From contig NC_060023.1 of NCBI RefSeq assembly GCF_021134715.1, positions 1,364,001 through 1,428,000 of the forward strand: a DNA stretch of 64,000 nt, in the 5' to 3' direction. The translations under genes and the position numbers were made by a program. Every line of letters begins with the position of its first letter. The stretch's first letter is position 1. Positions 14,906 to 46,915 of this stretch are shown here, in pieces. The notes beneath the pieces are model-generated. The model saw nothing but the letters and a program-made list of their open reading frames with translations, searched no databases and was not told the origin of the DNA. This stretch comes from Daphnia pulex. Taxonomy: Eukaryota > Arthropoda > Branchiopoda > Diplostraca > Daphniidae.

Positions 14906-14999
14906 ACGGGTAAATATTTTGTATTTTTACATAGTTTTGTATCAATTTATTCTATTTCTATGTGACAATATGCTCTTTATAATTGAACATTGTCTAGTA

Positions 15000-15330
15000 A
15001 ACTATGCCGTCGTGCTGCACTACACACATCAACTTATGCTGCTCCGAGCTACTACACCGAAGCCTCGTTGAAGTATTATCCTTCCCCGAGCTACGCTACC
15101 AAAGCGCATGTGTACACCACCGAGGCTCCCGAGTACTACACCACCGAGGCTCCCGAGTACTACACCACCGAGGCTCCCGAGTGCTACGCAACTACGTATG
15201 CTGCCCATCCTACTTCACCGAGACTCCTAAGTACTATTCTGCTCCCAGCTACTGCTTTGAGGCTCCAGCTTAGTACACCACCAAAGCGATCGAATATTAC
15301 ACAGAAGCGCCCAAGTACGATAGAAATCAG
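15000..15330 (+). pseudogene. YYTTEAP-repeat secreted protein, broken copy 1
   Basis: A Tyr/Thr/Glu/Ala/Pro repeat protein of the type common in Daphnia (units such as SYYTEA and EYYTTEAP). The repeat EYYTTEAP is encoded by a 24-bp unit repeated three times in near-identical form at 15,122-15,190. The frame reads TYAAPSYYTEASLKYYPSPS up to about 15,205, where a one-base deletion shifts it. In the restored register the repeat continues to about 15,270 and meets a TAG. A secreted, possibly cuticle- or shell-associated structural protein is the likely ancestral role. The 3' end fades into another copy of the 5' module (15,320-15,380). Confidence 0.6.
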
Positions 15331-15496
15331 TCGAGTGAGTATCTTCGACACACAACACGGCAGCCCCGAAGTTTCGTATTAACTTCGTTTCAAACAGTGG
15401 AACAGCAAAGAGCGAAGGTGAGCTCTTTATTATTGCAATTTTGTGGAACATGTACTAATGACATGTTTTTCTTCCTATGCTCTCTTTCGAACAAGA

Positions 15497-16520
15497 CGAA
15501 TTCTATTGCAATCCCGTTGAATTGAACGGCAAAGATAAAGGTGGCGTAGCAGTCGTACGTGGACACCGACATTGTCGGTCGGAGAGCCGAACTTGACGAT
15601 GGCCGTACCATCACCTACGACAAGTGCCTTATTGCCACAGGTAAACATTTTATGCCAAACGAAGTTCATCTTTAAAAGTCTCAACGATTACTCCTTTATG
15701 GAATGTTGAACAACTTTGATAATCTACGCAACTTATTCTCTCTATGCAATTTATTTCTTTGGTTACGAATCGCTCAAAAATGGCCTTTATTTTCTTGTAG
15801 GTGGTAAACGAAAATCTTTTCCAATCCCTGAATGGTGCCCTCAAAGATGCCCTCGAGCACGTAACGCTGTTCCGCAACATCGATGGCGGTAACATAGGCC
15901 GAGTCCTCCCTAAATATTTGAGCCAATGGACAACCGAGAAGGTGAAAACGGAAAGTGTTTGTGTTGCTCAAAGCTAATGTTGAGGGTGCAATTTTGTTAG
16001 ACTACAAGGTTGCATTGACCTTAAATGATGGTCAAAAGGTAAACAGTTATTTCAGTACATGTTTTAGCGATGTTAATTAAAATCTGGAATTCATTTCAGC
16101 AGATTTAAACTGACCAGTCGTCGCTGTTGTCGGTTGGGACGCAAACACGGATTTGGCTGTCGCTTCTGGTTTGGAAATAGATTCCAATTTTGGTGGTTAT
16201 CGAGTCAATACCGGGCTTGAAGCACGATCGAACGTCTGGTAGGTAAGAATCCTTGAACATTTATTTCATATAAATTGTAATACTTTTGACTAAAACTTAA
16301 CCAACATTGACTGCTCTGATGTTGTTGTTAGATGGTATATGAAGTTCTTGTTAAATTAGATTCTAACTATTATGTATGGACTTTATTTTTTATTAGGCTG
16401 GAGATGTTGCGTTCTTTTGTGATATCAAATTGCGGAATTGGGTCGTCGTCGTATGGAACATCATCACTATGCTGTTGTATCAGGGCGATTGGCTGGAGAG
16501 AACAACACTGTCAACGGAAC
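15497..16520 (+). pseudogene. Apoptosis-inducing factor (AIFM1-like) pseudogene with introns
   Basis: Four exon-like blocks match consecutive parts of mitochondrial AIF, an FAD/NADH oxidoreductase. Block 1 (15,497-15,640): NPVELNGKDKGGVAVV, then after a frame break DDGRTITYDKCLIATG, an oxidoreductase core strand. Block 2 (about 15,800-16,038): KYLSQWTTEKVKTESV with a stop just after it, then VALTLNDGQKV. Block 3 (about 16,105-16,258): [20 protein letters not shown] then [12 protein letters not shown]. Block 4 (about 16,397-16,515): AGDVAFFCDIKL, frame break, GRRRMEHHHYAVVSGRLAGE, the conserved C-terminal FAD region. Splice-like GT/AG sites between blocks show this was a genomic duplication, not a retrocopy. 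Part of the second dinucleotide-binding fold is missing between blocks 1 and 2. Frameshifts and stops rule out a normal product. Confidence 0.8.
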
Positions 16521-16733
16521 ATGGATGAACAATTGCAGTACACTGTCACCAAGTGCATTCTTCGTCCTATTATCAGTACGTAATCGGGTAAATATTCTGT
16601 TTCATGGAGTTTGTATCAATTATTTGTTTTTATCTGTTAATGTACCGTATTGAATATTAATGTTCAAATCATTTACCGCCTATTTGATTGTAATGTCGTG
16701 CTGTTGCCGTTTGTCGTATCGTTGAAGGTCGGG

Positions 16734-17470
16734 TCGATCACTGGTGTAACCATGTCTCCTAGGTATGGCGTATACCAAAGCACCACGCCGCCGCCTTGCT
16801 ACACAACAACATTCGCACCAACCGGTTACTACACTGAGGACCATAATTACTACACCACCAAGGCTCCAGAGTATTACACCATCACCTAAGATTCTGAGTA
16901 CTACACCGAGGCTTCCAAACACTACACCACCAAGTCACCGGAGTACTACACGTATGTTGCCACAGCTTATACACCGAGGCTCCCAAGTATTACTCAGTTC
17001 CTAGCTACTACACTGAGGCTCCAACTAATTACACCACCAAAGCGGCTGAACCGAGCCGTCCAAGTACTACACCACCAAGGCTCCAGAGTATTACACCACA
17101 ACTTATGCTTCCCCGAGCCACTACACCGAAGCCCCGAAGTATTACTCTGCCCCAAGCTACACAACTACAACTGAGGTGGCCAAGTATTACGCAGCCCCGA
17201 CTTACTACACACCGGCTGCTCCTTCGTACTACGTTGAACAGGAATACTACACCGAGGCTCCAGTTTACTACACCGCAACCCACGCTACACCTAGTTACCA
17301 CACCGAGGCCCCTTAGTACTACGCTACCAATGCATCTGAGTATTATACCACTACTTACGCTGCTCCGAACTATTACTCTATCCCGAGTTACTACACCACT
17401 AAGGTACCTGAATATTTCACCACACCCTACGCTTCTCCAACTTACTACAGAGACGTTTCTAAATACTAGA
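16734..17470 (+). pseudogene. YYTTEAP-repeat secreted protein, broken copy 2
   Basis: A second, longer copy. A hydrophobic leader-like frame (VVLLPFVVSLKVGSITGV) runs into GYYTEDHNYYTTKAPEYYT, then a TAA stop at about 16,887. The repeats continue downstream in other frames (YYTEASKHYTTKSPEYYT; later SYYTTKVPEYFTTPYAS) to about 17,465, with at least two frame changes and one more stop (CCTTAGTAC near 17,310). The protein family is recognised from its periodicity (Tyr-Tyr-Thr every 8-12 residues). A multi-exon functional gene is not excluded but no consistent splice model restores it. Confidence 0.6.
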
Positions 17471-17474
17471 GTCG

Positions 17475-17836
17475 AATTTTCAATTTTCAATCATGTTCAA
17501 ATTTGTCGGTCATATCTTGATAGTTACTAGTCACTGGGAATTGTTGATCTTTAATGAGAAAATAAATTTTATTAACCTGGGTAATCATTTTGAATGACTT
17601 CTCTTGCCACCTAAAAGCCTTTTGACATTGCGACGTTTTCTGAATTTTGTTGGATCTTTACTATTTCGCATGTTGGAGTGGAGAAGACTATTGCCCTAGT
17701 CACTCTGCCTTCGGACGTATTCTGGTGCTTGGCCAAACTTCATTTAGTGGGCAATTTAAGAAAGAAATATACTGTGGTGTTAACTAAAAAATTTTGATAA
17801 CAGCTCTGTTTTTAACTTTAGTTGGCGTAACAATTA
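17475..17836. other. Intergenic, nothing recognised
   Basis: Spacer between the broken YYTTEAP gene and the palindrome. No gene or repeat partner found. Confidence 0.4.
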
Positions 17837-21465: not shown

Positions 21466-21836
21466 AACAAAGCTCACTTGTTAGGTTTTCGATATTTGAT
21501 TTTTTATTTCTACTTCCGGTTTATTCATTTCAGTCTGTAGTTTAGTAAATATTCATCTGACGTACGAAAGAACCACATATTCGTGATCCCCGTCAAATTT
21601 GTGGTAAAGTTCATGTTCTGTTTTTTACGTTTGCGTACTTCCGGTTTCGAAAATTTTCCTGAACTATATTTTGGCCAAATTTTGGATTTCGTTTAAATCC
21701 CACCTAATCGACCCCAAATTTCATGGGGATCACGAATATGTGATTTATTTTGACGACAGCTCGATGGTTGAGGCGCTGTGGTTACTTCCGGTATACTTCC
21801 GGAATTTTTTTTTAAGACTAGCAAGTGAGCTTTGTT
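21466..21836 (-). mobile_element. MITE-like element B, right arm
   Basis: Copy of the element at 18,595-18,981 within the inverted arm, 371 bp, with termini AACAAAGCTCACTTGTTAG and CTAGCAAGTGAGCTTTGTT. Confidence 0.65.
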
Positions 21837-22100
21837 ATGTTTACAGTTCTCAACATTGCAAGCTTGATTTAAACTTTAAAAAATTGCATATTTAAATATT
21901 TGAGCTAAAAAACCCTGATTATTTTTTCTATCTGTATTATGTAACTTTTATTGGCATGTCACTAAATAAGATTTGTTTTCTCTTTAATCAGGTAATGCAG
22001 AAGAGACGTCGAGAAGATGGACACCAAAACAACGCCGGTATCTCTAAAATGTCAGCGTGGATCATCATTTGTTGTTAGTAACATGTTTGTGTTTGTGTAA

Positions 22101-22419
22101 GTTAACCCGTTGTCTGCCACGCCTTTGTTCTCCCCTAGCTCCTTTGCACGGGCTGCGTGCGCTGTTCGGTCTCGTGGTTTTCATGCCGCGGGGTTGGAAA
22201 GTCGCACCAGCCCAAAACTTGCCGCAAGGCGCCTGTTAAGGCAATGCACTATAGGGACTTCCCCCTTGTCGATGCGGTGATGGATTCTCCTGTCACCGTG
22301 TCAGCCCGGACTTGTCAGCAATGGCAAGTCCCACTTTGGTCACGGATCCTTCAGACGTGGCGCGTAGTGTAGTAGAGAGCAACCTACGGGTTGTATGGCG
22401 TGGCAGCCAACGGGTTAAC
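22101..22419 (-). mobile_element. MITE-like element A, right arm
   Basis: 319-bp copy of the element at 18,084-18,335; it retains the central segment that the left copy has lost, so it is closer to the full-length form. Terminal repeats GTTAACCCGTTGTCTGCCAC / GTGGCAGCCAACGGGTTAAC. Confidence 0.65.
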
Positions 22420-22667
22420 TTATAAGTGTATGTATGTATGTATGTGATTGTAAAATGTGGTGGAATTGTGGGTGGAGGTGGGACAATAAAGCAATTCCTT
22501 TTAATGTTTTTGTTTGTTGTGTCTCATAACTTATAATAAAAAAAGTTTAGTTCACGACTTGTATATTTTTTACAACTTTGAAGTTTTACACAAGTTATAG
22601 GCAGAAGTGGCTGATCTCCAGACTCTTTAAGTAAACTTCTATGAGGAACCAAACACTATCTGCAACT

Positions 22668-24010
22668 CCTGTGGCACAGCAATTTCAGGAGAACACCAGC
22701 ACAGCTACTTAAGTTCTTTTTCTTCAATCCTGTACCAGCTTCATAATCACCTCTCTCAACTGGAAACAGGCTGCAAAACCACTGCACATTGAACAGCACA
22801 GGAATAGTTTAAGTATCACCAAGTCCTATGGGGAAAAAGGAATATCATTTTCCATGATCAAACTTAAGATGCAAAAGAAATTGTGTAAAACAAATGACAT
22901 CAGACATTTTTCCAAGATTCCATTGGCAAATGAAATTTTAAATGAAGATTAAGTATCAGGAAAAGAGAATTCTGTACATCTAATTCTTAAGTGTTAGAAA
23001 AAGTTTGCAATAGAGAGTAGAAATTTTTGTTCTAGTTTATCAGAAGAAAGTTGTTAACTCAAAGGAAGCTGATCGCTATCTGATATCTTTTATGAAAACT
23101 ATTATTTGGAAGCAAGAAATCACACCACTTATTGTCTACATCAGATCTTACTTTACTTGCCAGTTGAATTTTAAATTAAAAAAGACGCAAGACTTTTCAA
23201 GTGACAACCAATCAATTCAATCAACTTACCATTTCAAAAAGTCTTCCTGCAATGACACTTCCAGATAACACCAGCTCGATAAACTGCATGCAGCAGCTGC
23301 AGCTCAACTTGACTCAATCTCGCCTTTCACCAGCTGGCTGCAACAACACCACTGTGGCCATGATGCCAGCCATTGAGCTTAGAATTTTCGAGTTCTCACA
23401 TTCTGCACAGCTAAGCAACAGGATCTCCAACCTGAACACCAACTAATAAAATCTATAGCATCATTGCAGGGATATTGATCAACAAAATTTCTCTACTACC
23501 TCTGTAGTGTTTCTGCGTGAGATGAGACGTACATCCGAACAGTTACAGCTAACAACGGACGACATTTCGGCAAAATGGAAAGCAGTTTCAGTCCACGTGA
23601 GACGTGACCGATTATTCGGCCAAGTGGAAATTATATGCCAGATTGCCTGTAAATTCACACAGCAACGTCTAGGATTAATTACATTTGAGAAATACAAACT
23701 AGAATTTACCATTAAATTTCAATGCTGAAAATGTAGATCGACACCGCAATTCCGTAACGTATTTGGAATACCTTTTCACTTGGCGTTTCGGAACAAAATG
23801 GAGCAAATGTCGTCCTCTCAAAGACACTTGCGTCATCTGGCGGCTGGGGGACAACTTGATTTTAGCCACCTACTGACGGAACCAAAAGATTCCTCCACGA
23901 TTACCACGTTTGACTGTACGGGAAAGGAATCAAGGATGGATGGATTGTCGGACATTTGAAATATAAAATTCAATGTAGTACTACTGTTGATCATAAAAAT
24001 AATTAAAGAT
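22668..24010. other. Sequence beyond palindrome, no gene recognised
   Basis: Contains an 81-codon plus-strand frame (23,201-23,446, Gln/Asn/Ser-rich) and a 73-codon frame (23,507-23,728). Neither has recognisable domains or splice support. The stretch may be part of the same repeat landscape as the palindrome. Confidence 0.35.
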
Positions 24011-24200
24011 TTTATTGGAGTTCTATTTTCGCGTAGTGCAGTTCTACTGTCGTGCTGGAATTCTTTTGTCAGGTATTTTTAATAATATTTATAAAAGGAG
24101 TTCTTATGTCTTTGGAGTTCTACTGTCGCATACAAAGAATTTTTTTTTTACATTAGCTTTTTTAAATATTATTAAAAATACCCGACAATAGAACTCTAAT
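24010..24200. repeat. GGAGTTCTAYTGTCG motif cluster (MITE-like)
   Basis: Motifs GGAGTTCTATTTTCG, CAGTTCTACTGTCG and GGAGTTCTACTGTCG lie on the plus strand, with CCGACAATAGAACTCTA in inverse orientation at 24,181. They give the stretch inverted ends resembling a small non-autonomous element related to the palindrome spacer. Confidence 0.5.
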
Positions 24201-24249
24201 AAATTCTTGAATACATTCTTTATTTAAAAAACCTAACGTCAGTCACTAA

Positions 24250-24335
24250 TAAGTAAATTGTCGGGTACCTGGGCATAGTCCGTGGTGAGTGACTGCAGGT
24301 GTGTAACAGCGGCACGGAAGCGACCACTATTATAT
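24250..24335 (+). repeat. Third copy fragment of palindrome arm interior
   Basis: GTCGGGTACCTGGGCATAGT and GAGTGACTGCAGGTGTGTAA match the left arm at 19,247-19,320 in the same orientation. The homology stops near GCGACCACT. Confidence 0.7.
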
Positions 24336-24339
24336 CAAG

Positions 24340-25260
24340 ATTCAAATGGTCAACTATGCGAATGAAAGGTGTTGACAGTTGAGTAGAAGCGTAGTGAGGG
24401 AATCGGAATGAAGAGAGATAAACTAGGGTAGTAAAAAAACGGATATTAAATCTTACGGTACAAGTTAGTAGCGCTTTTAGATATAAAATATCTCAAGACT
24501 GTTAAAATATAGGTACTTCATAAACCTATCACAGCATAACTATATTATTCTCTGTGAAGCTGAGCGGCAATGAAATGATTCCGTATTCCTGTATATACGC
24601 CATTGCGTGTGAGACTTGGTGGGACTTGATGGCAGTGACAAAGCGTATGCATGTGTCAAACATGTGCATTCGTTTGTAAGATCACTGAGTAGTGGCATTG
24701 AAAACCAACACATGCCACCGGGGCAAGTTAATATCTTATACAGGGGAAAATATCAAAAAAATATTCTGCTCCGAACGGGAAAGAAAGCCCTTCACTCCGC
24801 ATCTTGTTATGGGTTATATCATTGGCTCAGATGAGAGTGGCGTTAAAATTCGATGGTAAAAGTAAGTACAAAAGGTAGTTGCAGTACTAACCTGATTAAT
24901 GCTTTGTTCTGTTTTTAATTTCAGATTAGGAAATGTGAGTGTGAATAATTTCGCACTTTGCTTATGATAAGTGGATCGGACAAACTTCAGTTTTTCTCCT
25001 GTAGTTCTAAAAATATAAATTCAGATAAGAGAAACAATCACGTAATTTTGATTGTGACATACCAAGAAAATCGAAAAGGATGACTTCTTGTAATTCGGGC
25101 GGAAGCGACGATGGCTGCCAAACTATCGATTTTCGCGAAAGACTCGTCAAAGTCGACCAGTTTTTTTTTCGGGCGAGTTCTAGTGAAGGGCTTTGGTATC
25201 CTATAACATGGTAAGGGCAATCGATCTGCAAAGATTCTTCTAACGTAGGTCCAGAAGAAA
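24340..25260. other. Intergenic, no gene recognised
   Basis: No supported feature; a 72-codon frame at 24,616-24,834 has no recognisable content. The minus-strand coding-like segment that begins inside this stretch is listed separately. Confidence 0.35.
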
Positions 25261-25409
25261 GTTTCATCTTTCAGCAGGGATTAATGGAAGGCTTTTGACG
25301 GTCCAGCAATGTTATCAAATTCGAAATCAAGATTCGTCTGAATTAGCAGTCGGGATAAACCATTTTCAAAATCGTCTCTCGCCTGAGGTCCTTTTGCGTT
25401 GTCGTCCAT
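25039..25409 (-). pseudogene. Coding-like minus-strand segment with one in-frame stop, unrecognised
   Basis: From an ATG at 25,409 the minus strand reads MDDNAKGPQARDDFENGLSR and continues to a TAA (25,281-25,283). The same frame then stays open for about 80 further codons (SLLKDETFFWTYVRRIF ... KKKLVDFDESFAKIDSLAAI) to a TGA near 25,039. A long frame interrupted by a single stop suggests a recently disabled gene or an unrecognised short intron. I do not recognise the family. Confidence 0.3.
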
Positions 25410-25736
25410 TTTTTATAAAAAACGAGTCGTCAATCTAATCCAGCAATTTGTGTCGATTCGTGTCACGTGAAATCAATGGGGTGATGCGTGATGCCAATAA
25501 ATAGAGGACCTGGATCTCTTGTTCTTCTGCCGTCAGGGGATGAGTGCAACACTATCAACGTCCTACACCAGCAGCATTTTTCTTCTACCGTCGTAGAGCT
25601 AGACCAATAAGTCACGGTAGGCACCAAGCAATGAGATCTCTACTCCAGTAATGACCCATTGGATTTTTCGTGTTTCAGCTCTTTCTCAAACGTTTTGAAT
25701 TTTCTTTATTCAAATCTATTGAAATCCCTTTCAAAC

Positions 25737-25945
25737 TTGGTTACCGAAGCCCAACAGTTGCTTGAAATTGCAAGTGTAAAATTCTGTGTCATTTAGATCT
25801 TCGGACAACTTTTCTTCAACTATTGCCACTGCATGAGAATGAGAAATTCTTTCTCTGGTTTTACAACTTGGGTGGAGTCAACACAATGTCCATGAGCTGC
25901 AATTTGTGGAAGCTTGATTTGACTTTCAATGAAGACGAACTTGTC
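25737..25945 (-). pseudogene. Coding-like minus-strand remnant, unrecognised
   Basis: Two partly overlapping frames on the minus strand look like one interrupted coding region: KLPQIAAHGHCVDSTQVVKP in one frame, then AVAIVEEKLSEDLNDTEFYT in another. It lies upstream of the segment at 25,039-25,409 on the same strand and may belong to the same lost gene. No family recognised. Confidence 0.25.
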
Positions 25946-26159
25946 TAAAGCTGTCTAGTTACAACTTTGGCTGCAAACAGAAATATATCATGAAATCAGG
26001 GGAAAATATTTAACTAAAATCATAATTTTATTACTTGGTTTGGATACACCATGTTACGATCAATTCTCTTGAATCACATTATATACTGCTGATTGCTTTG
26101 GTCAACACCAATCTTGTATTTCATCTTTAGCCTGTATCCCACAAGCTCTTTCTTCCTTC

Positions 26160-26930
26160 CTCCCATGTGATCATTAAAGAAATTTTAATAAGCATTGAGG
26201 AAAATTTGAATGTGAAGGCTGGTAAATATTACCTAGTTAAATTTAAACTTGAGGATCTTCATGTGTCCATTTCTGAACCAGATTCAAACTGCAATTTTAT
26301 CACTTTTTACTTTCTTGCTGCATTACCTACACACAAATGTTTATTTTTTAAATGATTAATTGCCTTCTATTATCAACTCAGCGTGATCACTCACTCTTCC
26401 CAGTTGTTGTTGTAAGAAACCATACTAACAGACCAGATCAGACCAAACCACGCCACAGCAGACGAAATGACGAATGATGCGAACAGCCGAACATGCGAAT
26501 GATGCGATCAATTTGTATGACGTTGCGAAACAAAAATACTTCAGATATGTGAAATATTATGATAATCAGAATTCAGATTCGAGATATGTGTCATTCAAGA
26601 TTTCGGAAAACAGAAAAAAACAAAAAAAAAAAAAAAAAAGACTAACACAGCTCAGCGAAAAAAGTAAGCGCAGTAGTCGATATTGCCTCAATGTTCCCTC
26701 TGGTTAATCAAAGTTATCAAACAACGAAGTAACGAACATAAACGCCGATGAATCTTGAATGGCCTTGCCAGAATTTACACCAAGAGGAAAAACGTGGAAT
26801 GTATAGCAATTTCCACTTTTAATAACGGCACCATATTATTATATTTATAATGATAAGGTAAAACCAAACTACATTAACAACTACCTAGATGGTAACCAAT
26901 TATCCAATTATCTGTAATAAAACTAAACCA
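26160..26930. other. Intergenic, nothing recognised
   Basis: Includes an A-rich tract (26,617-26,639). The 62-codon frame at 26,167-26,355 is unsupported. Confidence 0.35.
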
Positions 26931-26933
26931 GAC

Positions 26934-27105
26934 TAAAGTACTCAACAAACTAAACTAAACTAAACTTGAACTAAAACTAAACTAAAGCTAAATTAAAACT
27001 AAACTAAAACACTTATCCACCGTCTAGAACACTAAAAAACTAAACTAAAACTAAACTTATATTACACTAAAACTATAACTAAACTAAATCTAGACCAGAA
27101 AAACT
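26934..27105. repeat. AACTAAAC low-complexity tract
   Basis: Irregular repeats of CTAAA/AACTAAAC run up to the left side of the 296-bp array. A TTAAC/CTTAG-rich tract occurs at the other side (29,990-30,095). Confidence 0.6.
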
Positions 27106-27323
27106 AAATTTTTATCTTGGCTAACCAAAAGAGTGATGTGAATGGAAAATAGGATTATGGTATTGGAGTGACTACTATTTCTAGACCATAATGATATACC
27201 GTAAATGTGAAGGTAAGGTTATATTGGATAGGGAATAAACAACAAATGTATACTTACACACACACATTTAACACGATAAAACACTCACACAACCTTAGAC
27301 AAGAAATAGTTATACCGTACCAT

Positions 27324-27404
27324 TTAAAGATCTTCGAAGTCCTTTGCTGCGGCGGGGACGATCTTGTAGTGGCGGGGGCGATCCTCCTTGGTCCTGGGTT
27401 CCAT
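27324..27404 (-). other. Distal terminal exon-like unit of the tandem array
   Basis: The last unit on the minus strand starts with the same acceptor and exon start (TACTCTAG then ATGGAACCCAGGACC) but diverges into a unique end. In the frame of its ATG it encodes MEPRTKEDRPRHYKIVPAAA and six more residues before TAA. All other copies have a stop in this frame after 19 codons. This looks like a 3' terminal exon; coding status is uncertain. Confidence 0.4.
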
Positions 27405-29768
27405 CTAGAGTACATAAAAAAAAGGGATGATTAGACACTTAGAATTAAAAAATATACCTGAGATCCATTGGCGGAGGTCCTAGCGTGCGGCGATCTTGAA
27501 GCGGCTCCGGTGGTGGTGGCGGCGGCGGCGGCGGTGGTGATCCTCTTCAGTGTAAAGAAAATCCAAAAAACATTAACAAAATGAGTTTAAGGCATTCAGA
27601 ATCAAATAAAATGTACCTTCGACCCGTGGGCCAGGGTCCTATCTTGAAGCGACGATCTTGTAGTGGCGGCGGCGATCCTCCTTGGTCCTGGGTTCCATCT
27701 AGAGTACATAAAAAAAAGGGATGATTAGACACTTAGAATTAAAAAATATACCTGAGATCCATTGGCGAAGGTCCTAGCGTGCGGCGATCTTGAAGCGGCT
27801 CCGGTGGTGGTGGTGGCGGCGGCGGCGGCGGTGGTGATCCTCTTCAGTCTAAAGAAAATCCAAAAACATTAGTAAAAGAAGTCTAAGGCATTCAGAATCA
27901 AATAAAATGTACCTTCGACCCGTGGGCCAGGGTCCTATCTTGAAGCGACGATCTTGTAGTGGCGGCGGCGATCCTCCTTGGTCCTGGGTTCCATCTAGAG
28001 TACATAAAAAAAAGGGATGATTAGGCACTTAGAATTAAAAAATATACCTGAGATCCATTGGCGAAGGTCCTAGCGTGCGGCGATCTTGAAGCGGCTCCGG
28101 TGGTGGTGGTGGCGGCGGCGGCGGCGGTGGTGATCCTCTTCAGTCTAAAGAAAATCCAAAAACATTAGTAAAAGAAGTCTAAGGCATTCAGAATCAAATA
28201 AAATGTACCTTCGACCCGTGGGCCAGGGTCCTATCTTGAAGCGACGATCTTGTAGTGGCGGCGGCGATCCTCCTTGGTCCTGGGTTCCATCTAGAGTACA
28301 TAAAAAAAAGGGATGATTAGACACTTAGAATTAAAAAATATACCTGAGATCCATTGGCGAAGGTCCTAGCGTGCGGCGATCTTGAAGCGGCTCCGGTGGT
28401 GGTGGTGGCGGCGGCGGCGGCGGTGGTGATCCTCTTCAGTCTAAAGAAAATCCAAAAACATTAGTAAAAGAAGTCTAAGGCATTCAGAATCAAATAAAAT
28501 GTACCTTCGACCCGTGGGCCAGGGTCCTATCTTGAAGCGACGATCTTGTAGTGGCGGCGGCGATCCTCCTTGGTCCTGGGTTCCATCTAGAGTACATAAA
28601 AAAAAGGGATGATTAGACACTTAGAATTAAAAAATATACCTGAGATCCATTGGCGAAGGTCCTAGCGTGCGGCGATCTTGAAGCGGCTCCGGTGGTGGCG
28701 GCGGCGGCGGCGGCGGCGGTGGTGATCCTCTTCAGTCTAAAGAAAATCCAAAAACATTAGTAAAAGAAGTCTAAGGCATTCAGAATCAAATAAAATGTAC
28801 CTTCGACCCGTGGGCCAGGGTCCTATCTTGAAGCGACGATCTTGTAGTGGCGGCGGCGATCCTCCTTGGTCCTGGGTTCCATCTAGAGTACATAAAAAAA
28901 AGGGATGATTAGACACTTAGAATTAAAAAATATACCTGAGATCCATTGGCGAAGGTCCTAGCGTGCGGCGATCTTGAAGCGGCTCCGGTGGTGGCGGCGG
29001 CGGCGTTGGCGGCGATCCTCTTCAGTCTAAAGAAAATCCAAAAACATTAGTAAAAGAAGTCTAAGGCATTCAGAATCAAATAAAATGTACCTTCGACCCG
29101 TGGGCCAGGGTCCTATCTTGAAGCGACGATCTTGTAGTGGCGGCGGCGATCCTCCTTAGTCCTGGGTTCCATCTAGAGTACATAAAAAAAAGGGATGATT
29201 AGACACTTAGAATTAAAAAATATACCTGAGATCCATTGGCGAAGGTCCTAGCGTGCGGCGATCTTGAAGCGGCTCCGGTGGTGGTGGTGGCGGCGGCGGC
29301 GGCGGTGGTGATCCTCTTCAGTCTAAAGAAAATCCAAAAACATTAGTAAAAGAAGTCTAAGGCATTCAGAATCAAATAAAATGTACCTTCGACCCGTGGG
29401 CCAGGGTCCTATCTTGAAGCGACGATCTTGTAGTGGCGGCGGCGATCCTCCTTGGTCCTGGGTTCCATCTAGAGTACATAAAAAAAGGGATGATTAGGCA
29501 CTTAGAATTAAAAAATATACCTGAGATCCATTGGCGAAGGTCCTAGCGTGCGGCGATCTTGAAGCGGCTCCGGTGGTGGTGGTGGCGGCGGCGAGGGCGG
29601 CGGCGGCGAGGGCTGCGACGAGGGCGACGGCGATCCTCTCCAGTCTAAAGAAAATCCAAAAACATTAATAAAAGAAGTTGAAGGCATTTAAAATCAAATG
29701 AAATGTACCTTTGACCCGTGGGCCAGGGTCCTATCTTGTAGTGGCGGCGGCGATCCTCTCCGGTCCAT
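27345..29768 (-). repeat. 296-bp tandem array of paired exon-intron modules
   Basis: Eight full units plus a partial one. The anchor GATCCTCCTTGGTCCTGGGT recurs every 294-296 bp (once 290, and 307 at the 29.7-kb end). On the minus strand each unit reads: exon A (82 bp, starts ATGGAACCCAGGACC), intron (64 bp, GTACATTTTA ... TTTCTTTAG), exon B (97 bp, GCC/ACC-rich), intron (53 bp, GTATATTTTT ... TACTCTAG). Both introns have canonical ends, pyrimidine tracts and CTAAT-like branch sites, and intron sequence is as conserved as exon sequence. Exons A and B resemble each other, so a simpler unit was probably doubled first. Both exon lengths are 3n+1, so no single frame runs through the array. Unit length varies in the GGC/GGT tract. 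Confidence 0.9.
29543..29768 (-). CDS. Possible two-exon Arg-rich micro-ORF at the 5' end of the array
   Basis: At the 29.7-kb edge the first exon-like unit begins with ATG and reads MDRRGSPPPLQDRTLAHGSK (29,768-29,709). A 64-bp GT-AG intron (29,708-29,645) joins it in phase 0 to TGEDRRRPRRSPRRRRPRRR, four His and RSRFKIAAR, ending at a TAG (29,543-29,545), 53 residues in all. The Arg/Pro/Ser tract recalls RS-type or nucleic-acid-binding segments. The expanded tract is special to this unit. Coding status is speculative: it depends on the splice sites being used. Confidence 0.3.
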
Positions 29769-29769
29769 G

Positions 29770-30840
29770 ATCCTATTTACATCAACGACAAATTATGGAT
29801 AAACTTTATAGTTTTTTAAAACCATAATCAATTAAGCAAAAATAGAATATATACAGCTAAAACATTGAATTTAGATTGCAATTTCCTGAAAGAAAAAAGG
29901 TTATTAGTTGACACGTTAGGGTTGGGGATTGCTAAAGACGAATTTTCTACACCACAGAGCCATCACAGTAAATTGGCAACTAACTCTATCGTGAACTTAA
30001 ACCTTAACTTAGCTTAACCTACAATAGCCTTAGCTTAGCTTAACGGCTTAACCTACAATATCCTTAACTTATACTTAACTTTAACCTTATCTAGATTGGC
30101 TTACTCTAATTAAGTAGCTACTGGTGTGGACAACAAAGAAGGTGAGTCAATCTACAAACACTACAAGACTATTACAGTGCAGATGCAATTGTGCTGATAT
30201 AGTGATGAGATAGTAAAACGAAATCTACGACCATCAACGACACAAAACACTACAGAGAAACCACGAAAAACTGTGTAGGCAATGCATAAAACGAAATTAA
30301 TCCAAGTGCAAAGGCGTGAAGATGCAAAACTACAGCAGCAAACTAGAGACAAGTGCACACCGTGCGAATACGTGGACTACTGAGCATTTTTTGGTCTCTG
30401 GAATGCCCATCGGCACGCCGATTTCCCGCAGCAAAAACCCTGGAGGTATTTTTCAGTATTCGAGGTCAGATGAAAATGGAGCAATTGAAGGGAGGAGTAA
30501 CCTTTATTGACCCAATTTGAACTCAACATCGTTTGGTAGCGAACAGCCTTGAAACAGTTATTTTGTCTCTCCTCCCCTTTAATCCTTGTGATGACGCTGG
30601 CTTGACAACATCATCTCACATTTCTGCAAGTCAACTCATGTAACTAAGTGTAAGTGTTAATTTCAAATTTTGCTTCATGCATGCTGAGGGGGGGGGATCT
30701 AATGCCAACATCTTGACCTAATTAGGTTATTTGAAGATAACGTAGATAATACTTAACTGACTTATTCGTTATCACAAAAGATAGTTTTATTAGCTTAAAA
30801 ATTTGCACAAATAATATTACCTAGCTAGAATACAGTCAGT
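29770..30840. other. Intergenic, low-complexity and no gene recognised
   Basis: TTAAC/CTTAG-type low complexity at 29,990-30,095. A 64-codon frame at 30,316-30,510 is unsupported. Confidence 0.4.
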
Positions 30841-30969
30841 CATGTTCCAACAATTTCACGAATGGCGTCACGAATGAAAGGGTGTGCAATATTGGCATCT
30901 GAATAAAGAGGAGAATGAAAGACAATTTTGTTTTGTTTTTGAAATGTGTCCACGGTTCCATGTGATTAC

Positions 30970-31655
30970 TTATTCTTTTACATGAACTTTGCGGAATTTT
31001 TTAATCTTGAACGAAGAATAACTAAGAAAAACTTCGTAATCCAAGGACCATTCGGCAGCTGCTGTTGAATTGAAGATCACTTCTAAAGACCGGGCCGATG
31101 TTACTGCACCTTGTTGTCGCTCCTGATTGACGATGACTTGAATATAGGCAGTCAACTGGGGAAATTTAGGATCATCTGTTTTTTTATTCCTTTACTCTCG
31201 ACTGTAATTGCACAAGCACTGATTCTCCATCTGGTCTATGATTAATAAAAACAAGTTTAAAAGAAATTTTGAATGTGATGGCTGTTTCATCTTCTTCATG
31301 GTTTACCTCAACTTCCAACTACTAATTTTAACTAACCCTAATACCAATGTGATTATTGGTACTTGGGCTGAAGATGTTTTTTAACTTCGTAGAGTTCTAA
31401 CCTCAAAGTACTGCTGGTGCTGGTCATCATATTGGTCATAGAAAGAGTGGCAGCTTTTAAAACAATGTAAATAAGAATTTAGGTCTAACAAATATTTCAA
31501 GCATTGCATAAATAGGCTTACTAATTTCTTTTGAAAGAAGAAAAGGTTTGAAGATTTGAGTCAAAAGTTTCCTCTTGCAAACGGAACTATCGTTGATAGT
31601 GTACACTTGAGAGATGGCACTCAGACCTACAAGAAAGGTAGCTTTAAGCTCCACA
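30970..31655 (-). other. Possible multi-exon coding remnant, unrecognised
   Basis: Several minus-strand stretches look coding: IVNQERQQGAVTSARSLEVI within a frame ending at a TAA near 30,970; a 52-bp exon-like piece at 31,402-31,453 with good acceptor and donor; and INDSSVCKRKLLTQIFKPFL (31,500-31,600) followed by a GTAAG donor. I could not join them into one open frame, and no family was recognised. It could be a gene with more exons upstream or a decayed copy. Confidence 0.25.
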
Positions 31656-31659
31656 GTGA

Positions 31660-33240
31660 AGTAATGAAAATTATGATAAGCAGTAAAATAGTGTGACCTC
31701 TTTGGTTAGAATAAAACGTATGCATTGCAGCATTCAGGACTTTCAATAGTTAGCCCAATTCAACATCCTGTTTTGAAATATTTCCATGCATGTGTGCATT
31801 TCATATTTAATGCCCCTTGCTAATCTGTTAAAATAAGTGAAAAATTTAGTGAGGGTTAAAAAAACAGAAAATTTTGCAATAATTATGATATAGCTCATTG
31901 CTCACTTTATATGAAGCATTGCATGTGCACAGGAAAACATTGATTCTATCATGCAGATTTTAGTGATTGAAAATGGTAATAGTTGCAACAGGCCCTCAGT
32001 TTCTTACACAGAAACTTTTTTAAAAAATGTGTTGATGCTTTATGCAGCTTTGTGTCCCAAATCAACAGAATTTAGTCTTAAACAATAAAATTACTGTTTG
32101 CCTAGATTCTTTCCATATTACGTGGTCTTAAAAACAAAATTCTATAAAATAATTATGAGAAGATCAAAGTAATCTCAGTTATATTTTTAAAATATAAATA
32201 TAATTTCTTTTCTTCGGTGTTCGGTGACTTCCCGGTCTAACAATTCGCCACGTGGACCAGACGACAACAAGCAATCATGCATGATTCGATAGAGCAGTTC
32301 AAAATTCCTCTACTAGGTGGCCATAAAGAATAATTATTGCGGGTTTTTCAAAATGGTGTTAATCGTTATTTTATAATGACAAAATCAGGCAACTTCATTT
32401 AAGTTTAAAATTTAGCCGTCAGTAAGTAAAAATTCCCCTCAAAATAAATAAAGAACACACTTTTTTAGAAACTTGTTTATTTACAATTAACTAAGAAGAA
32501 GAGGGCTATTTTCTGGGCATTTCCACAGATTTCAGAATTACTAGCAATAATACCAACGCCCGGGCTGGTGAAAATCACAAATGTAACCAAATCAAAGAAA
32601 GTGTGTACTGTGTAGGGAAAGTACTGGCGCTACCAGAGGCCCGGGGGGAACTGGTAACCTGGTGACGTAAGTCGCATAGCACAATAACCCTTACGTTAGA
32701 TCAATAGTTATCATGCTAGAGACTCAGTTCTAAACCGGAAGTAAGAAAAAAAATAAATCGTTTGGCGAAAAGGAATCGAATTTCACAATTTTGAAAGATG
32801 AGCTCTGTTTCTAAAATTATAAGCTTTTGACTACAACATTATCCTTCCTTAAAACATTATCCTCCCTTAAAGAAATTCTTGCGGAAGCTGGATGCAGTCT
32901 GTTCTTTTCAAAATTCAAAAAAAACTGATGTCAACAGCATCTGGTGGCCAATTGCAGAAAGGATGTTTTCGTCTGTTTCTTGGAAATGGAATTTTTGTAA
33001 TTCCAAGTATTCCAAGTACATTTACCTTTTGTTGAGATCTCCAGATGACTGCGGCATCCGCATCGATAAAACTGTTCAATCGGAAAAGTGTGGGTAATTT
33101 CCTTTTTCTCCTCCTGCTGCATTTTAACATTTTCACACTACATATCCTTCAAATTGCCCATTTTCCTTTGTGGTTTACACGAGGTTGTTTGAGTATCGGT
33201 AGTAAAAACGCGCGTCTTTCCTTATTCCGCTCGGTTACAA
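31660..33240. other. Intergenic, nothing recognised
   Basis: AT-rich. Contains CCGGAAGT and GAGCTCTGTTTC near 32,740-32,810, loosely recalling the MITE-B ends, but no clear inverted repeat. Frames at 32,879-33,248 are unsupported. Confidence 0.35.
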
Positions 33241-33279
33241 GACGCTGAACGTGGACCCAAACGTACTCAATAATCAGGA

Positions 33280-33285
33280 TTTATT
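33280..33285 (-). terminator. Poly(A) signal of the 404-residue membrane protein gene
   Basis: AATAAA on the minus strand, about 130 bp downstream of the stop codon at 33,415. Confidence 0.5.
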
Positions 33286-33414
33286 AGAATGATATGATAC
33301 ACCAACCAACCCGTACACACGCGACAAGTTAACGAACATTACAACGTAACAGAACTCGAACGGTGTGTTTATGCGAACCGAAATACCTCCACCGTTATAG
33401 TATCCCTCCGAATT

Positions 33415-34823
33415 TTAGTTGGAACCAGACGTGGTCGTCGCTAGACGGACCAGGTAATTTACGGCATCATCCGCTTTACAACTTTCACAAAAAAAAAGAA
33501 AAGATCAGATTTATGTCACGAGAAAATGCTTATTTATATACCTTGGGAATATTTTATTGCAGTCGATTCCATTCCAGTCAAAAGGGGCGCGAATCAATTT
33601 GATCATAGCGGTAGATGGACTCAGCCAGCCAGTCGCCATTTTCAACACTACAGCGTTCATCTTTGCTATTGTTCCTGTTACTCCTGTCAATAAAATTCCC
33701 ACATTCTCAGTGCTACGACCAATGGAAGAAATTAATTTCACTTGACAAATATACCTTCCAGAGATGCCCGGCTGTTGATTTCCGTGCAATAAGCAGACCA
33801 AATACAGTCTAAACCTTCGCCATTTGAATCCTTGGAAGCTTTCAGGATATTGTGAGCAGCCCAGAGGTAATCATCGGCCGAATCTTCACCGGCCGCGTTG
33901 TTGACTACATTTTCCACGTCCGTGTTGTTACTGGGTTCGGTGAAAAGCAAGTTCAAACTATTGTAAGTCCAGGGTTGTAGTGCGCTGCTCATGCTTCGGC
34001 CTCTTTCTTCCATCAGGAGCGGATCGACGGGCTCCGATTGCAATTTCAAGAGTCGATCCATTTGGCGAAGAAGAAAGATGCTGAGACTCAAATAACTCAG
34101 CGTCACCCACGAAGAACGATCGGCGCTAATGGCATTCTCGTTGGCTTTCACGTGAGGATCTTCTTCTTGCAAGTCGACGCCAAAGATGCGGCTGACAGTG
34201 TTGAGTAGTTTGCTCATGTTGAAAGAATCGTGATCCCAGTTTCTGATAGACTCATCGACCGGCTGGTAAAAAAGATCCGAGCGTTCGTTGTTTCGATTCG
34301 CCGTTCGGCTCTGCTGCTGCACCAAGGCAGGGCCCCAAACTCGGGAGTCGGGTAGGTCGAAAAAGGATTTGGGCGTCGGGGTTAAATGCTGGCGTTGAGC
34401 CCACTGGCTAGATCCTTCGTTGGCTAAAGTCGCCATAGTTTCAGAACGCTGAACTTTAGCCAAATGGTCCCCGGAAGATGAAGAAACATTGGGGTGAGTG
34501 ATGGGCACAGGTTTTGACGTAGCGACACTGGCAATAATTCGAACAGTTTCCGGATGATCAGACGATCGACTGAAAATGAATCCTCTTCTATCTTTAATCG
34601 ACATCACTGGTTCCGACGTCTCCTGAGTAAGCCAAACAACAAATTAAGTATCAAATGATGAAATAGAAAATTCGATTCAACTTACATTTTTTTTTTGGGA
34701 ATGACTGAACCTGTCGAAAAATCCGCCGACGCCTGCCCAGATGCAGAATGCAATCAATGCAATCGAGGTAACCAGACCAGCCACCACGTAGGAAATTTGT
34801 TTCTTGTTCATAGTAGAAGTCAT
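33415..34823 (-). CDS. Predicted single-pass membrane protein, family not recognised
   Basis: Four coding exons on the minus strand (34,823-34,686; 34,622-33,755; 33,683-33,542; 33,481-33,415), phases 0, 1 and 2, giving 404 residues. A short charged N-terminus precedes a transmembrane segment (about 11-34, ISYVVAGLVTSIALIAFCIW), followed by a long Ser-rich linker and a C-terminal region with conserved-looking cysteines (LDCIWSAYC, NGIDCNKIFPSC). The layout suggests a type II membrane protein or uncleaved signal anchor with an extracytoplasmic C-terminal domain, as in several arthropod proteins of unknown function. The start ATG is preceded by CAT and an upstream frame that ends 17 bases before it. 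Confidence 0.75.
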
Positions 34824-40330: not shown

Positions 40331-40480
40331 CTTCTTCGCTGGCATGTTACCTGCACTAGGATATCCTTACATATATGACAGTAGCTCCGGCCTGGGAATC
40401 GCATCAGTTTATTGGGTGCTCGTAGACAAGTTGGACGAGTGGCAAGTCACAAATAAAGAGAAAACCTAAAAAAGACGAAA

Positions 40481-41753
40481 ATGAAATTTCTGTTTATCGT
40501 CGTGTTGGCCAGTGTCCTGATTGTGGATCGCCACTCAACCGAAGCTCAAAACATCTTCTCCAATTTCTTCAACTTGTTCAGCAATTTGGGCAATTTCCAG
40601 CGCGTCAGTCGGCAGCAAACGTCGTCATCCGTGGGCGATGTCGTTGTCACCGTCACCAATGACGCCATCATCGAGACGTCGATTGTCGAGACGACGCTGA
40701 CGGAAACTATGACCATGATCCTGACGGAATGGTCGACTTCGACAGTCAAGGAGGTCCAGTCCGTTCCGGTAGCGCCCATCACTTTCACCGAGTACCAAAT
40801 GGAGACGCAGATCTGCACGACGACGGAATTCAGCATCGAGACCATGTCGGTGACGCTTCCGGCTTCCACAGTGACGACGACGGAGCTGCTGACGTCCATC
40901 GTCACGGAAATCCAGATGGAAACGGTCCAGCTGGAGCCTTCCGTCACGACCGTAACAACGACGGAGGTATCCACCACATCCATGACGACGACAGAGTCTC
41001 CGGTGACCACGACGGAAGTCATCCGCCAAACGGAAACCGTTTCACTTGAGCCAATCACCGTGACGGCGATGGAGACGACAGTCTCGACGGCCACCGTCAC
41101 GGAATCCATGACGGAACTGGTGACATCCGTCGAAACAGCCACCGTTACACTTCCGGAAGTGACTGTGATGTCGACCATGACGGAGGTGGTCACCACTTCG
41201 TCGATGATCACTGAAACCCTGTCCATAACGCTGCCCGTCGAGATTTGCACGTCCACTGTCGAGACCATCACGTTGCCCGTCGAAACGCTTTCCATCACTC
41301 TTCCGGCGGAGGTCAGCACAGTTACCGAAACGGCCACTCTTACGACGACGGAAATTTCCACTCAAATTACAACTGAAATTTCCACTCAAACGACGACTGA
41401 AATTTCCACTCAAACGATCACTGAAATTTCCACGGAGATCGTCCCTACGACGGTGACAGAGACATCAGCTAATACTCAGACAGAGACGGCCGTTCCGGAA
41501 GCGGCTCCAGCCAAACGTCGCCGAAGTGTCCAGCTGGATGATAAAAAAGCCAATCTGAAAATGGCTCCGTAAGTTTATTATTTTCAATCAAAGAATTCAT
41601 TAAATAATTACCAGTAATTTGTTGGCTATTTCCAGGTTAACTCCGTCAGCTGTCACTGCCGTTCCTTACATCATCAAACGATCCATCGACATTGAATCGT
41701 CGTTCATGGAACAGCAGAGCAGACGCTCTCCAATGATCAAGATGGCATCGTAA
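40481..41753 (+). CDS. Secreted Thr/Glu/Val-rich repeat protein 1 (TTE cluster)
   Basis: Two coding exons, 40,481-41,568 and 41,636-41,753, joined by a 67-bp phase-2 intron, giving 401 residues. A signal peptide (1 to about 22, FLFIVVLASVLIV) is followed by a Phe-rich stretch (NIFSNFFNLFSNLGNF) and then a long body of alternating Thr, Val, Glu and Ser (for example TTTEISTQITTEISTQTTTE, an 8-9 residue repeat near the end). A basic KRRR (345-348) resembles a furin-type site. The last exon encodes VPYIIKRSIDIESSF (372 onwards), shared with the other four genes of the cluster. The body should be extended and heavily O-glycosylated, as in mucins or matrix proteins. No known domain is recognised. 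Confidence 0.85.
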
Positions 41754-44700
41754 AACTTCTAAAAATACGCAACAATTCAAACAATTAACACTAACTTATC
41801 TTAATTTCAATTAACTAACACCAATTAATCAGTGTAAATCTCCCTTTAATTTATTCAAAAAACAAACAAACAAAAAATTCAATTCAATATAAAAACTTGA
41901 AAAAAATTTGTCGAAATTCAATTGGCAAAGCTCTGTAACTTATTTTGACTTTCTGACCATTCGCCCTAGAAACAATTCCAGATTGCGCGCGCGCGCGCAT
42001 ATATTATTATCTTTACCTCAAATGTACGGAGAATTGTGCTGATTAGATTTGGATTGAAATTAGGTGAAATAGCGATCGTGGTCACGAAATCGGTCCGGGA
42101 TTTCGGTGGAGAGAGGGGGAGGGTCTCTGTGATATAGTTTCGATAGAATTATTTTTATTATTATTATTATTATTATTTATTATTCCGTAGAAATTCCAGA
42201 ATTATGTAACAAATATTTTATCCCAGTCGGAGAAAAAGCGATTGACCGGCGGCGGAATTTTAAATGGCACGAACTTGTGTGGCGTCTGGGAGAAGCGGGA
42301 GAAAACATGGCGGCGCTTCCGCACTACGGAACGGAATGTAACTGTAAATCGGAAGGTGGCCAGTATTAACGAGAAAGAATAATTATTTTTCCCCTCTTTT
42401 TTTTCCAGGTATTTAAAAACTTTTGGGTAAATAGTTGGTAATTGGGAAACAAGAATGACGCATTTCCTGTCGAAACAAACGTATAGAATAGTTAAACAAA
42501 TTTAATGAGTAACGACCGAGCAATTATTCCGTTAGGAATTTCCAATGGAAGAATCAGCGGAGAAATATTTTTACCAGTGAAAAGAAAAATAGCTAATAAT
42601 ATGCAAAATTGGTGAGCACAACAAATTTATCCCGTCGTCGTGTAAAAAAAGAATGCGCTGGTTCACACAACGGGCGTGCACAGCCATTGTTGAATTATTT
42701 TAGTGGGCGATACGAGTAAAAATACATTTTCTTTTTTCAATAATAATTTGACTGAATTAAGTGTGAGAAAAGATATTTTAAAATGTTTGCATTTTCCCGT
42801 CATCCTGTCCAAATTTTCATTCGACAACATATGGCAAAATCTGTGTCGTCTGCTCGACTGATTAAATTTTAAAAAGGTGCGATAATCAAAAGAATCAAAA
42901 GAAAAAGAGCTGTTATCGGTTAATTTGTTTCACAATTACCAAGTTGAAGATAATGGTGACACGACCGAAATACTTCTGATGCTATCACATCTACTGCTGT
43001 TACATCTAAAGGTAAAATATTAACAAGATTTTGATTTCCTGTACAGGCCATTTGTTCCTTTTGAAATAAATTTTGATTAATCAAAGAAACTCTTACAGGA
43101 CATTTTCAAATTCCTAAATGTTCGTCGACAGTTTCAGCTTTTCTCTTTGAAGACTCAATTCGGGAAAGCAAATGGACCTAAGGTAATATTTCCTAGATCT
43201 TACAAGAGACTCAGTTCTATAAATAACCCATTTAAATAGGCAAACGCTTTTTCGAAAGGGAATTTGCAATGGAATCAGAGATCTGGAAAAAGAAGTTATA
43301 ACGGGATCGCGCTAAATGGACGGAATTCAACGCTGACGTAAGTTCGATTAAATGTCTACCGCAGTAAATGATAATAACGATTTGGGTTCATTAAATTTGA
43401 AACTTATTTCATTTTACGGATCTACTACAGAATCGTTGAGTTATCGGCCAATCGCGAAAAAACTACCCCCAGGAAAAATGTTGAATAAATTTCAAAATTT
43501 GGATACACAAAGAAATTCTTGACCGTTCGTGTAAAATAAGATGAACTCGTTCACACAGGAGATTCGTTGAATTGTTTAGTGTGCGATCTCCGCCCAAAAT
43601 TGATATGAATAAAAATTTTCTTTTTTAGATTTTATTGGACTGTGAATGGGAGAAACTATTAAAGCAAATAGATTGGAAAAGAAAAAGAATCAAAATTCAT
43701 ATATATTTAGAAAGAAAATCTCACGATCGTCGGAGATATACGAGGCGTGACTGAATCACTTGGCCGACATCTTTTTAGCACTTCTTTTTTTTTTTTTTTT
43801 TTAAATGGAGATTATTAAAATGTGCTTGGCTTGCTATACCCCGACACGGCCGGTGACGTGTAAATCTGCTTTGACGGAAGAGCGTTCAACGGCCTGCCGG
43901 TCAAAAGAGCGTGAGTTGTGAGTTTCGAACCGGCCGGCCAGTGCAACTGAGAAGAAGATGAAGAGAGGAAACATAAAGTTGAACGACCGAAAATCTACAC
44001 CTGCGACATACACTACAAGCTATACAACGTATTCTAAATGGGCTGCGCAACACCATGTGGTCCACGCTAACAACAATCAGACACCTGATGAAAATATACT
44101 GATACAACATCCAGTATAAAATGTCCAGATCCCCGCTGCTTTCATTCAAATTTTTACATATTTTTTAACACCAAGTCAATGAAATCCTTTTGTCCATTTC
44201 TTCTTCTTCCGTCATGGAAGATATTCGAATTTTGAAAATGATGGCCGGTGTTCCCGATTTCACAAAAGAGTCTCGGCTCACTAAACTGCGACAGGAGCAA
44301 TAAGAGAAAAGACAATTCCGTGCCGAGTTTGTACATGTCGACGCGAGGGGAAAATTTAGGTTAGCGCCAATATAAGACCAGCGGCCCCGATTAAAAAACC
44401 GAGGGGCTTTCAACCGCAAAACTTTTTGTCTTCACTTTTTGATTCAACAGAATGTAACTCTACTGTACGATACATAGTGTGTAGTTATTAAAAATACTAC
44501 TAGTACCGTATAAATAGGTTGCCGGCCGTTGTGGTGTGACAAGTCAAATTCGCGCGGGAAAGTCGGTCTACTTTGAATTTAATAGGTGGTCCTTTCACCA
44601 AATAAATCGGACGGGGGACTTGGTTAATGCGACACGTGAATAGCACAGCACTGGTATTACAACAGTCAAGCTTTTCAGTTTAATTTGGGGAAAACTGTCA

Positions 44701-46730: not shown

Positions 46731-46742
46731 CAATGGAAGAGA

Positions 46743-46749
46743 TATAAAG
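46743..46749 (+). promoter_or_regulatory. TATA box of TTE gene 2
   Basis: TATAAAG about 170 bp upstream of the start codon. An initiator at the expected distance is not clear. Confidence 0.5.
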
Positions 46750-46915
46750 ATAAGATCCGAGTGCGGCTAGTCAACCAAGTCCATTTGGTGTTGATCAGCC
46801 GTTCAGAGTGGCTCGACTTCGTCTCCGCTGCTGTCCCAACCGATTCCGCCCAGTTTTCCTGCGCAACGTGAACCAATTGTGTGAAATCATTGCTCACCTC
46901 ATCCATCCTTCCATC

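Follow-up and report, generated by a model that had tools for sequence, protein, structure and literature searches.

A dispersed family of tandem two-exon arrays in Daphnia pulex: candidate spliced, probably non-coding RNA genes

The hsr-omega and human satellite III RNAs are repetitive non-coding transcripts that are thought to gather RNA-binding proteins, and their repeats are not known to contain introns. The tandem array of Daphnia pulex considered here resembles them in that its putative product is a repetitive non-coding RNA; unlike theirs, however, its repeats are interrupted by putative introns.

Among the better described systems, as far as the accessible portions of the respective reports go, Firre is a single locus whose RRD repeat occurs in 7 of 13 human exons and 11 of 23 mouse exons and acts at the RNA level, at least 80% of its local repeats being rarely found elsewhere (PMC4820808). 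Nuclear retention and hnRNPU binding have been reported for the RRD (PMC4820808). The kringle IV-2 (KIV-2) region of LPA is a tandem unit of variable copy number, composed of two exons (160 and 182 bp), near-identical between units, and two introns of about 4 and 1.2 kb (PMC11201333). Pirmy and Pirmy-like RNAs are associated with the mouse Y chromosome, and piRNA output has been reported for them (PMC8428117). In the polyubiquitin gene UBC, dual-specific splice sites and stochastic splicing vary the number of ubiquitin monomers; its splicing units coincide with tandem repeat units, as they would in the Daphnia array, although the UBC repeat is coding (PMC10809524). The tandem-repeat survey of D. 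pulex, as presented in its accessible part, covers units of 1-50 bp (PMC3152781), and no description of the repeat discussed here was found in literature judged by title or abstract start.

The window analysed is a stretch of 64,000 nucleotides (C7:1364001-1428000), in which the array is read on the minus strand. The sequence comparisons suggest, on a narrow balance of probability, that this array and ten others form a dispersed family of genes for spliced, probably non-coding RNAs, organised as a higher-order exon-intron repeat and held by selection at the level of RNA or splicing. The analysis directly supports 11 loci with one-to-one upstream blocks, kept splice sites, exons that change more slowly than introns, and no sign of protein-level constraint.

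Anatomy of the window array and its family

The window array (27324-29768, minus strand) parses as a first exon, a repeated series of intron A, exon 1, intron B and exon 2, and a special last exon. The features of the locus are as follows (positions in the window; basis in brackets).

29769-30620, minus strand: conserved upstream block, present once in each locus, a putative promoter with 5' region (multi-locus identity, block search)
29804-29810, minus strand: TATA-like TATAAAG, 36-42 bp upstream of the ATG, of putative function (sequence comparison of loci)
29709-29768, minus strand: first exon, starting at ATGGACCGG, 60 nt in the window (array parse)
27405-29708, minus strand: array of eight introns A, eight exons 1, eight introns B and seven internal exons 2 (array parse)
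29645-29708, minus strand: example of intron A, 64 bp (array parse)
29226-29322, minus strand: example of exon 1, 97 nt, with the variable GCC/ACC triplet tract (array parse)
29173-29225, minus strand: example of intron B, 53 bp (array parse)
29091-29172, minus strand: example of exon 2 (82 nt), best conserved of the parts (array parse, locus consensuses)
27258-27404, minus strand: special last exon, with an exon-2-like start followed by unique sequence with AAGGACTTCGAAGATCTTT; 3' end putative (locus comparison)
27250-27257, minus strand: GTAAGTAT after the last exon (11 of 11 loci)
27190-27249, minus strand: conserved 3' flank, past which similarity drops (identity 0.87-0.94)
23288-32853, no strand assigned: wider duplicated segment, common to L009 and, decayed and in pieces, to other loci (L009 being the one locus fetched well beyond both sides)

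TRF reports a period of 296 with 7.6 copies and 97% matches (27357-29600), and eight introns of each type are present, in line with the roughly eight 296-bp units of the original prediction. The predicted exons of 82 and 97 nt and introns of 64 and 53 bp are the commonest lengths of the parse, and the first minus-strand intron lies at 29708-29645, exactly where it had been placed. Introns A measure 64 bp in seven cases and 65 bp in the last, introns B 53 bp in seven and 52 bp in the first, and all seven internal exons 2 are 82 nt long. Exon 1 is 97 nt long in five of its eight copies and 124, 91 or 94 nt in one each, variants that are due to the GCC/ACC triplet tract. The rule that both exons are 3n+1 long applies within the window, including all eight exons 1, but not throughout the family, where exon 1 ranges from 79 to 124 nt over the 11 loci and is not 3n+1 in 14 of 123 parsed copies (13 in L014, 1 in L009), while exon 2 measures 80 or 81 nt in 11 of 114 parsed copies. 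Likewise, the GT-AG ends described as intact are present in 15 of 16 window introns but are broken in the last intron A (27616-27552), which ends in AC. The first exon and upstream block, the special last exon, an open reading frame (ORF) of ~53 aa that recurs along the spliced units and ten other loci had been overlooked in that account.

The family was delineated in a genome of 133.19 Mb on 13 contigs. A 401-bp array query located the unit at 11 places on 7 chromosomes (C4, C5, C6, three on C7, two each on C9 and C11, and C12), together with two partial ones, and an upstream-block query returned 11 near-full copies at these same array loci, one per array, as well as one fragment on C9 and a 106-bp piece beside L009. 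All 11 loci share one layout: ~850 bp of upstream block, then the first exon, between 2 and 24 two-exon units and, at the end, the special last exon. The first exon begins with ATGGAC and is 60 nt long, or 74 nt in L014, L016 and L017; the TATA-like TATAAAG is found in 10 of 11 loci and reads TGTAAAG in L013, and the upstream block contains stretches of up to 32 nt that are invariant across loci. At the other end, AAGGACTTCGAAGATCTTT of the last exon is invariant in 11 of 11 loci, and GTAAGTAT is likewise kept in all of them while similarity drops soon downstream. The latter element, at 27250-27257 in the window, strongly resembles a consensus 5' splice site. Counting about 108 nt for the last exon, the spliced length in silico ranges from 438 nt (L019, 2 units) to 4245 nt (L017, 24 units).

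The genomic surroundings of the arrays have several features of their own. The distance from array to chromosome end is 0.94-2.31 Mb in all 11 cases, no array lying closer to an end or in a central position; for this measure, which was picked post hoc, random placement matched the maximum in 0.036% and the mean in 2% of trials. L012 is a nearby inverted duplicate of the window locus, about 96-98% identical where tested, and the segments concerned (window about 21970-34700 and C7:1303719-1318484) are ~83 kb apart and hold two of the 11 arrays. A decayed copy of the upstream segment, L021 (C9:8086000-8095900), adjoins a trace of the unit and is ~10 kb away from the array of L011. Window 21500-24500 contains a repeat whose best ~40 of 946 candidate places lie on C2, C7, C9 and C11, several as inverted pairs ~2-4 kb apart, such as C2:402863-404050 (plus) and C2:406499-407686 (minus); it looks like a palindromic mobile element. 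Elsewhere in the window, 3446-9374 holds two similar minus-strand gene copies, one with an ORF (3446-3940) that matches Pfam C1q and the other judged by sequence only. Plus-strand ORFs rich in YTTEAPEYYTT-like repeats occupy 14987-17530, and others with long Thr/Ser/Val/Glu-rich tracts occupy 40457-55955, three of which gave no Pfam match above the cut-off when scanned.

Conservation and origin of the unit

The core of the locus is more conserved than the DNA around it. With gaps counted as mismatches, identity over the 11 loci is mostly above 0.9 from ~30620 to 27190, and within the upstream block it amounts to 0.75-1.0 per 25 bp, again mostly above 0.9. In the 225 bp just upstream of ~30620 it is 0.64-0.93, and downstream of 27190 it is 0.3-0.9 to about 26440 and 0.05-0.65 further out. 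Because the core is conserved in all 11 loci and the flanks are decayed in most, the gene appears to have been kept across the family while the DNA copied along with it decayed. Long flank pieces that are still ~94-97% alike in the pairs L012/window locus, L015/L019 and L016/L017 imply that some copies are young.

Splice sites are nearly invariant across the family. A strict pattern caught 250 of 254 introns, and the remaining four were inspected and added, three of them being canonical; in total, 254 of 254 introns start with GT and 253 of 254 end with AG, so that 253 of 254 are GT-AG. Deviation from the consensus at the splice dinucleotides is 0.002 for intron A and 0.000 for intron B, against 0.069 and 0.029 inside the respective introns and 0.003 in exon 2.

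Exons and introns diverge to different degrees between loci. On average, loci differ from one another by 0.0086 in exon 2, by 0.0385 in exon 1 (tract excluded), by 0.0594 in intron B and by 0.1018 in intron A, a 12-fold difference between intron A and exon 2; the parsed copies behind these means are 114 of 116 internal exons 2, 123 of 127 exons 1, 124 of 127 introns A and 126 of 127 introns B. The proposal that introns are as conserved as exons is thus valid only inside the young window array, and fails between the 11 loci (0.86% for exon 2, 10.2% for intron A). Across locus pairs, which are not independent of one another, exon 2 is less diverged than intron A in 55 of 55 and than intron B in 50 of 55 (more diverged in none), and exon 1 is less diverged than intron A in 52 of 55. 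Only 2 of 82 sites in exon 2 vary among the 11 locus consensuses. Fisher tests on the variable sites of these consensuses give p = 2e-5 for exon 2 versus intron A, a weak p = 0.028 for exon 2 versus intron B, a non-significant p = 0.079 for exon 1 versus intron A, and p = 0.0018 for all exons versus all introns. These comparisons indicate that the splice sites and exons of the 11 loci are under constraint, two of the tests being weak; the low exon divergence could partly stem from mutation bias, the introns being T-rich.

The two halves of the unit are related to each other. Exon 2 aligns with exon 1 at 57 of 76 positions and intron A with intron B at 41 of 51, in both cases better than the best of 500 shuffles, which indicates that exon 2 plus intron A is a diverged copy of exon 1 plus intron B. 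Units are homogenised within arrays, and the end units are the most different ones in the window. Head-to-tail homogenised units with variable copy number are what defines satellite DNA, but satellite DNA has no gene structure under selection, whereas such a structure is indicated here within the limits given for the constraint tests. The simplest history would be one in which a monomer became a dimer, which was amplified inside each locus and dispersed in larger segments: a single exon-intron monomer would have doubled, its two halves would have diverged, and the dimer would then have been amplified, most likely by unequal exchange.

A relic locus, L020 (C7:4015436), retains a decayed pair of exon 1-intron B monomers, ~145 bp apart, which are arrayed as single monomers with a broken acceptor between them. 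The L020 exon is no closer to the live loci than the L020 intron (0.852 versus 0.892; 0.787 versus 0.815). The two monomers themselves agree better in the exon, where 56 of 61 positions are identical, than in the intron, with 42 of 50, and this counts against the control. Being short (38 exon nt and 51 intron nt in two monomers), the control does no more than tilt the balance away from low exon mutability as the explanation of exon conservation.

Coding potential and competing explanations

The spliced unit of the window comprises 82 + 97 = 179 nt, which is not a multiple of 3 and cannot hold one frame through the array; a long ORF was ruled out where tested, the spliced unit meeting stops. 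A spliced transcript would thus change frame and meet stops, as originally predicted. A shorter ORF recurs along the spliced units; it opens with an ATG in exon 1, crosses exon 2 and closes at a TAG in the following exon 1. An upstream-block ORF of ~50 aa occurs in some loci and is altered or absent in others, and was rejected as a gene product. The Rfam covariance models found no match up to E = 1 in window 23000-33000. A stable RNA structure of the exons was also rejected, since the spliced unit (z +2.89) and four exon RNAs (z +1.14, +3.22, +2.78 and +3.39) all fold worse than shuffles, scores to which the C-rich triplet tract may contribute. Such poor folding would suit an open platform better than a structured RNA. 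Retrocopies were likewise discarded as proof of splicing. The exon 1-exon 2 junction (up to 2 mismatches) matched two places on C5, which are 75% alike over 2.4 kb and unlike the arrays, and are therefore regarded as chance matches in another repeat; the exon 2-exon 1 junction pattern (up to 3 mismatches) had no match in the genome. An exact 41-nt exon 2 motif was absent from the viral contigs searched, a set that may omit near relatives of the genome analysed.

The recurrent ORF raises the alternative of a serial small-protein gene, in which a polycistronic transcript would encode an Arg/His-rich peptide of ~53 aa in each spliced unit, across both introns. Polycistronic small-ORF genes are known as a class, of which tarsal-less is the type. 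An ORF of 49-58 aa is opened by 95 of 127 internal ATGs, and 11 of the 32 misses are the last units of the loci, whose structure cannot give it; moreover, a related first ORF begins in 8 of 11 first exons, and 109 of 123 parsed exons 1 are 3n+1. However, triplet-tract slippage by itself yields multiples of 3, and the ORF is not in frame at all loci: exon 1 of L014 is frame-shifted in 13 of 13 units, with the ORF present in 0 of 13, L017 has it in 16 of 24 units and loses it in 8, and the 74-nt first exons of L014, L016 and L017 shift the first frame. Nor is purifying selection on the peptide apparent, as the 28 exon substitution types in this frame (20 nonsynonymous, 7 synonymous and 1 stop; a small sample from the 103 of 114 exon 2 copies that are 82 nt long, with the triplet tract excluded) are close to the 0.66/0.29/0.04 expected without constraint, the other two frames behaving alike. 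Neutral-like substitution types in three frames, in a sequence that hardly changes, suggest that RNA or DNA letters are constrained, the exon letters being kept but not visibly as protein. Neither the two unit peptides nor the two decayed flank frames that were scanned matched Pfam. Taken together, a serial small-protein gene seems unlikely. About as unlikely is a satellite without function, derived from part of a gene and dispersed through segmental duplications, in which low exon divergence would reflect recency, gene conversion or low exon mutability. The homogenised units with their divergent window end units, the copy number of 2 to 24, the duplicated flanks common to the loci and the smaller exon than intron difference between the L020 monomers are all compatible with it. 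Nevertheless, conversion and recency hit exons and introns alike, yet intron A has 12 times the divergence of exon 2; splice dinucleotides are kept in 253 of 254 introns, the upstream block is kept while the flanks decay, and the L020 exon is no closer to the live loci than its intron. Satellite growth, one of three options offered in the original prediction, thus captures the growth of the array, but its functionless version leaves the persistence of exons and splice sites unexplained; of the three, the best supported is a long RNA that is spliced regularly and is probably non-coding.

Silencing pathways offer a further reading, in which the multicopy, intron-dense repeat transcripts would be precursors of piRNAs or siRNAs, comparable to mouse Pirmy; multicopy spliced non-coding transcripts that yield piRNAs have been reported, as far as the available text describes them (PMC8428117). 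Exon conservation at nearly every site would fit a guide that needs to match its target; however, a search for a target gene resembling the spliced exons (12 first-look candidate regions) placed all matches listed in the 11 arrays and none outside them, and a small-RNA precursor is regarded as improbable. Carriage of the array by a mobile element is more doubtful still. The 11 dispersed copies, the flanks shared out to ~9.6 kb by the window locus and L009, and a main match with the window that starts at base 30854 in 7 of 10 other loci would be expected of an element, but in the nine loci viewed one sequence upstream of 30854 is common to those seven loci and another to the window and L009, so that this edge separates two alternative upstream versions and is more readily seen as a change on a single branch than as an element's terminus. 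The two decayed flank frames without a Pfam match and the lack of a spliced retrocopy junction in the genome also argue against this explanation.

The reading preferred here, a family of spliced and probably non-coding RNA genes, entails transcription, splicing and an RNA-platform function of the 11 loci, all inferred from their sequence. Each member would be expressed under its own conserved upstream block, acting as a putative promoter, and transcription followed by splicing would give an RNA of about 0.4-4.2 kb, repetitive in that a near-invariant 82-nt exon alternates with an exon of 79-124 nt. The product would be a non-coding, poorly folded, multi-site platform that binds one protein or another RNA many times, a role modelled on proposals for Firre or satellite RNAs, with the repeat number setting the number of binding sites. 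A wider and more tentative proposal is that these loci represent a class of RNA genes built on a spliceosome-defined repeat module, which might have been doubled, amplified in a satellite-like manner and placed at 11 loci with their own promoters, and be held by selection on splicing and exonic letters. If so, the repeat number would determine both the binding sites per molecule and the splicing events per transcript, and the function could lie partly in splicing itself, by way of exon-junction complexes or of spliceosomes that stall. Eleven near-identical genes with 2 to 24 copies of one spliced module constitute a natural set in a laboratory model animal, which makes two questions testable: whether repeat number tunes the action of a repetitive RNA, and how a satellite-like array is kept as a spliced gene. 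Loci of this kind may also be mistaken for coding fragments or satellite by gene predictors and repeat maskers.

Comparison with described systems

The statement in the original prediction that no named system is like the array is too strong, since Firre has repeated exons and LPA KIV-2 is a two-exon, two-intron unit. In the open-access literature searched, no system was seen that combines tiny introns in the repeat unit, frame-breaking exons and dispersal over many loci. By likeness, the nearest known systems appear to be Firre, LPA KIV-2 and Pirmy, as far as their available descriptions allow.

Pirmy shares with the array multicopy transcripts (putative in Daphnia) that are spliced, non-coding and composed of exons shared by several loci; unlike the array, Pirmy as described in the accessible part of its report is without a regular tandem exon-intron unit (PMC8428117). 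LPA KIV-2 corresponds in its tandem two-exon, two-intron unit, its varying copy number and the close likeness of its exons from unit to unit, the use of the Daphnia introns being deduced from their conserved splice sites. However, KIV-2, as described, is coding, belongs to one gene and has long introns, whereas the 179-nt spliced unit of the array breaks the frame.

Firre, in the available account, is similar in carrying its repeat in many exons, just as exons 1 and 2 recur here 2-24 times between conserved splice sites in a putative single transcript, and an absence of protein-coding constraint, as in a Firre-type RNA, is seen in the 28 variant types, with three frames near neutral. Unlike the one locus of Firre, to which its repeat is confined, the Daphnia repeat is found at 11 loci, with tiny introns inside a head-to-tail unit. 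Given these 11 loci on 7 chromosomes, the array is not filed as a relative of Firre, but only as one that would work like it.
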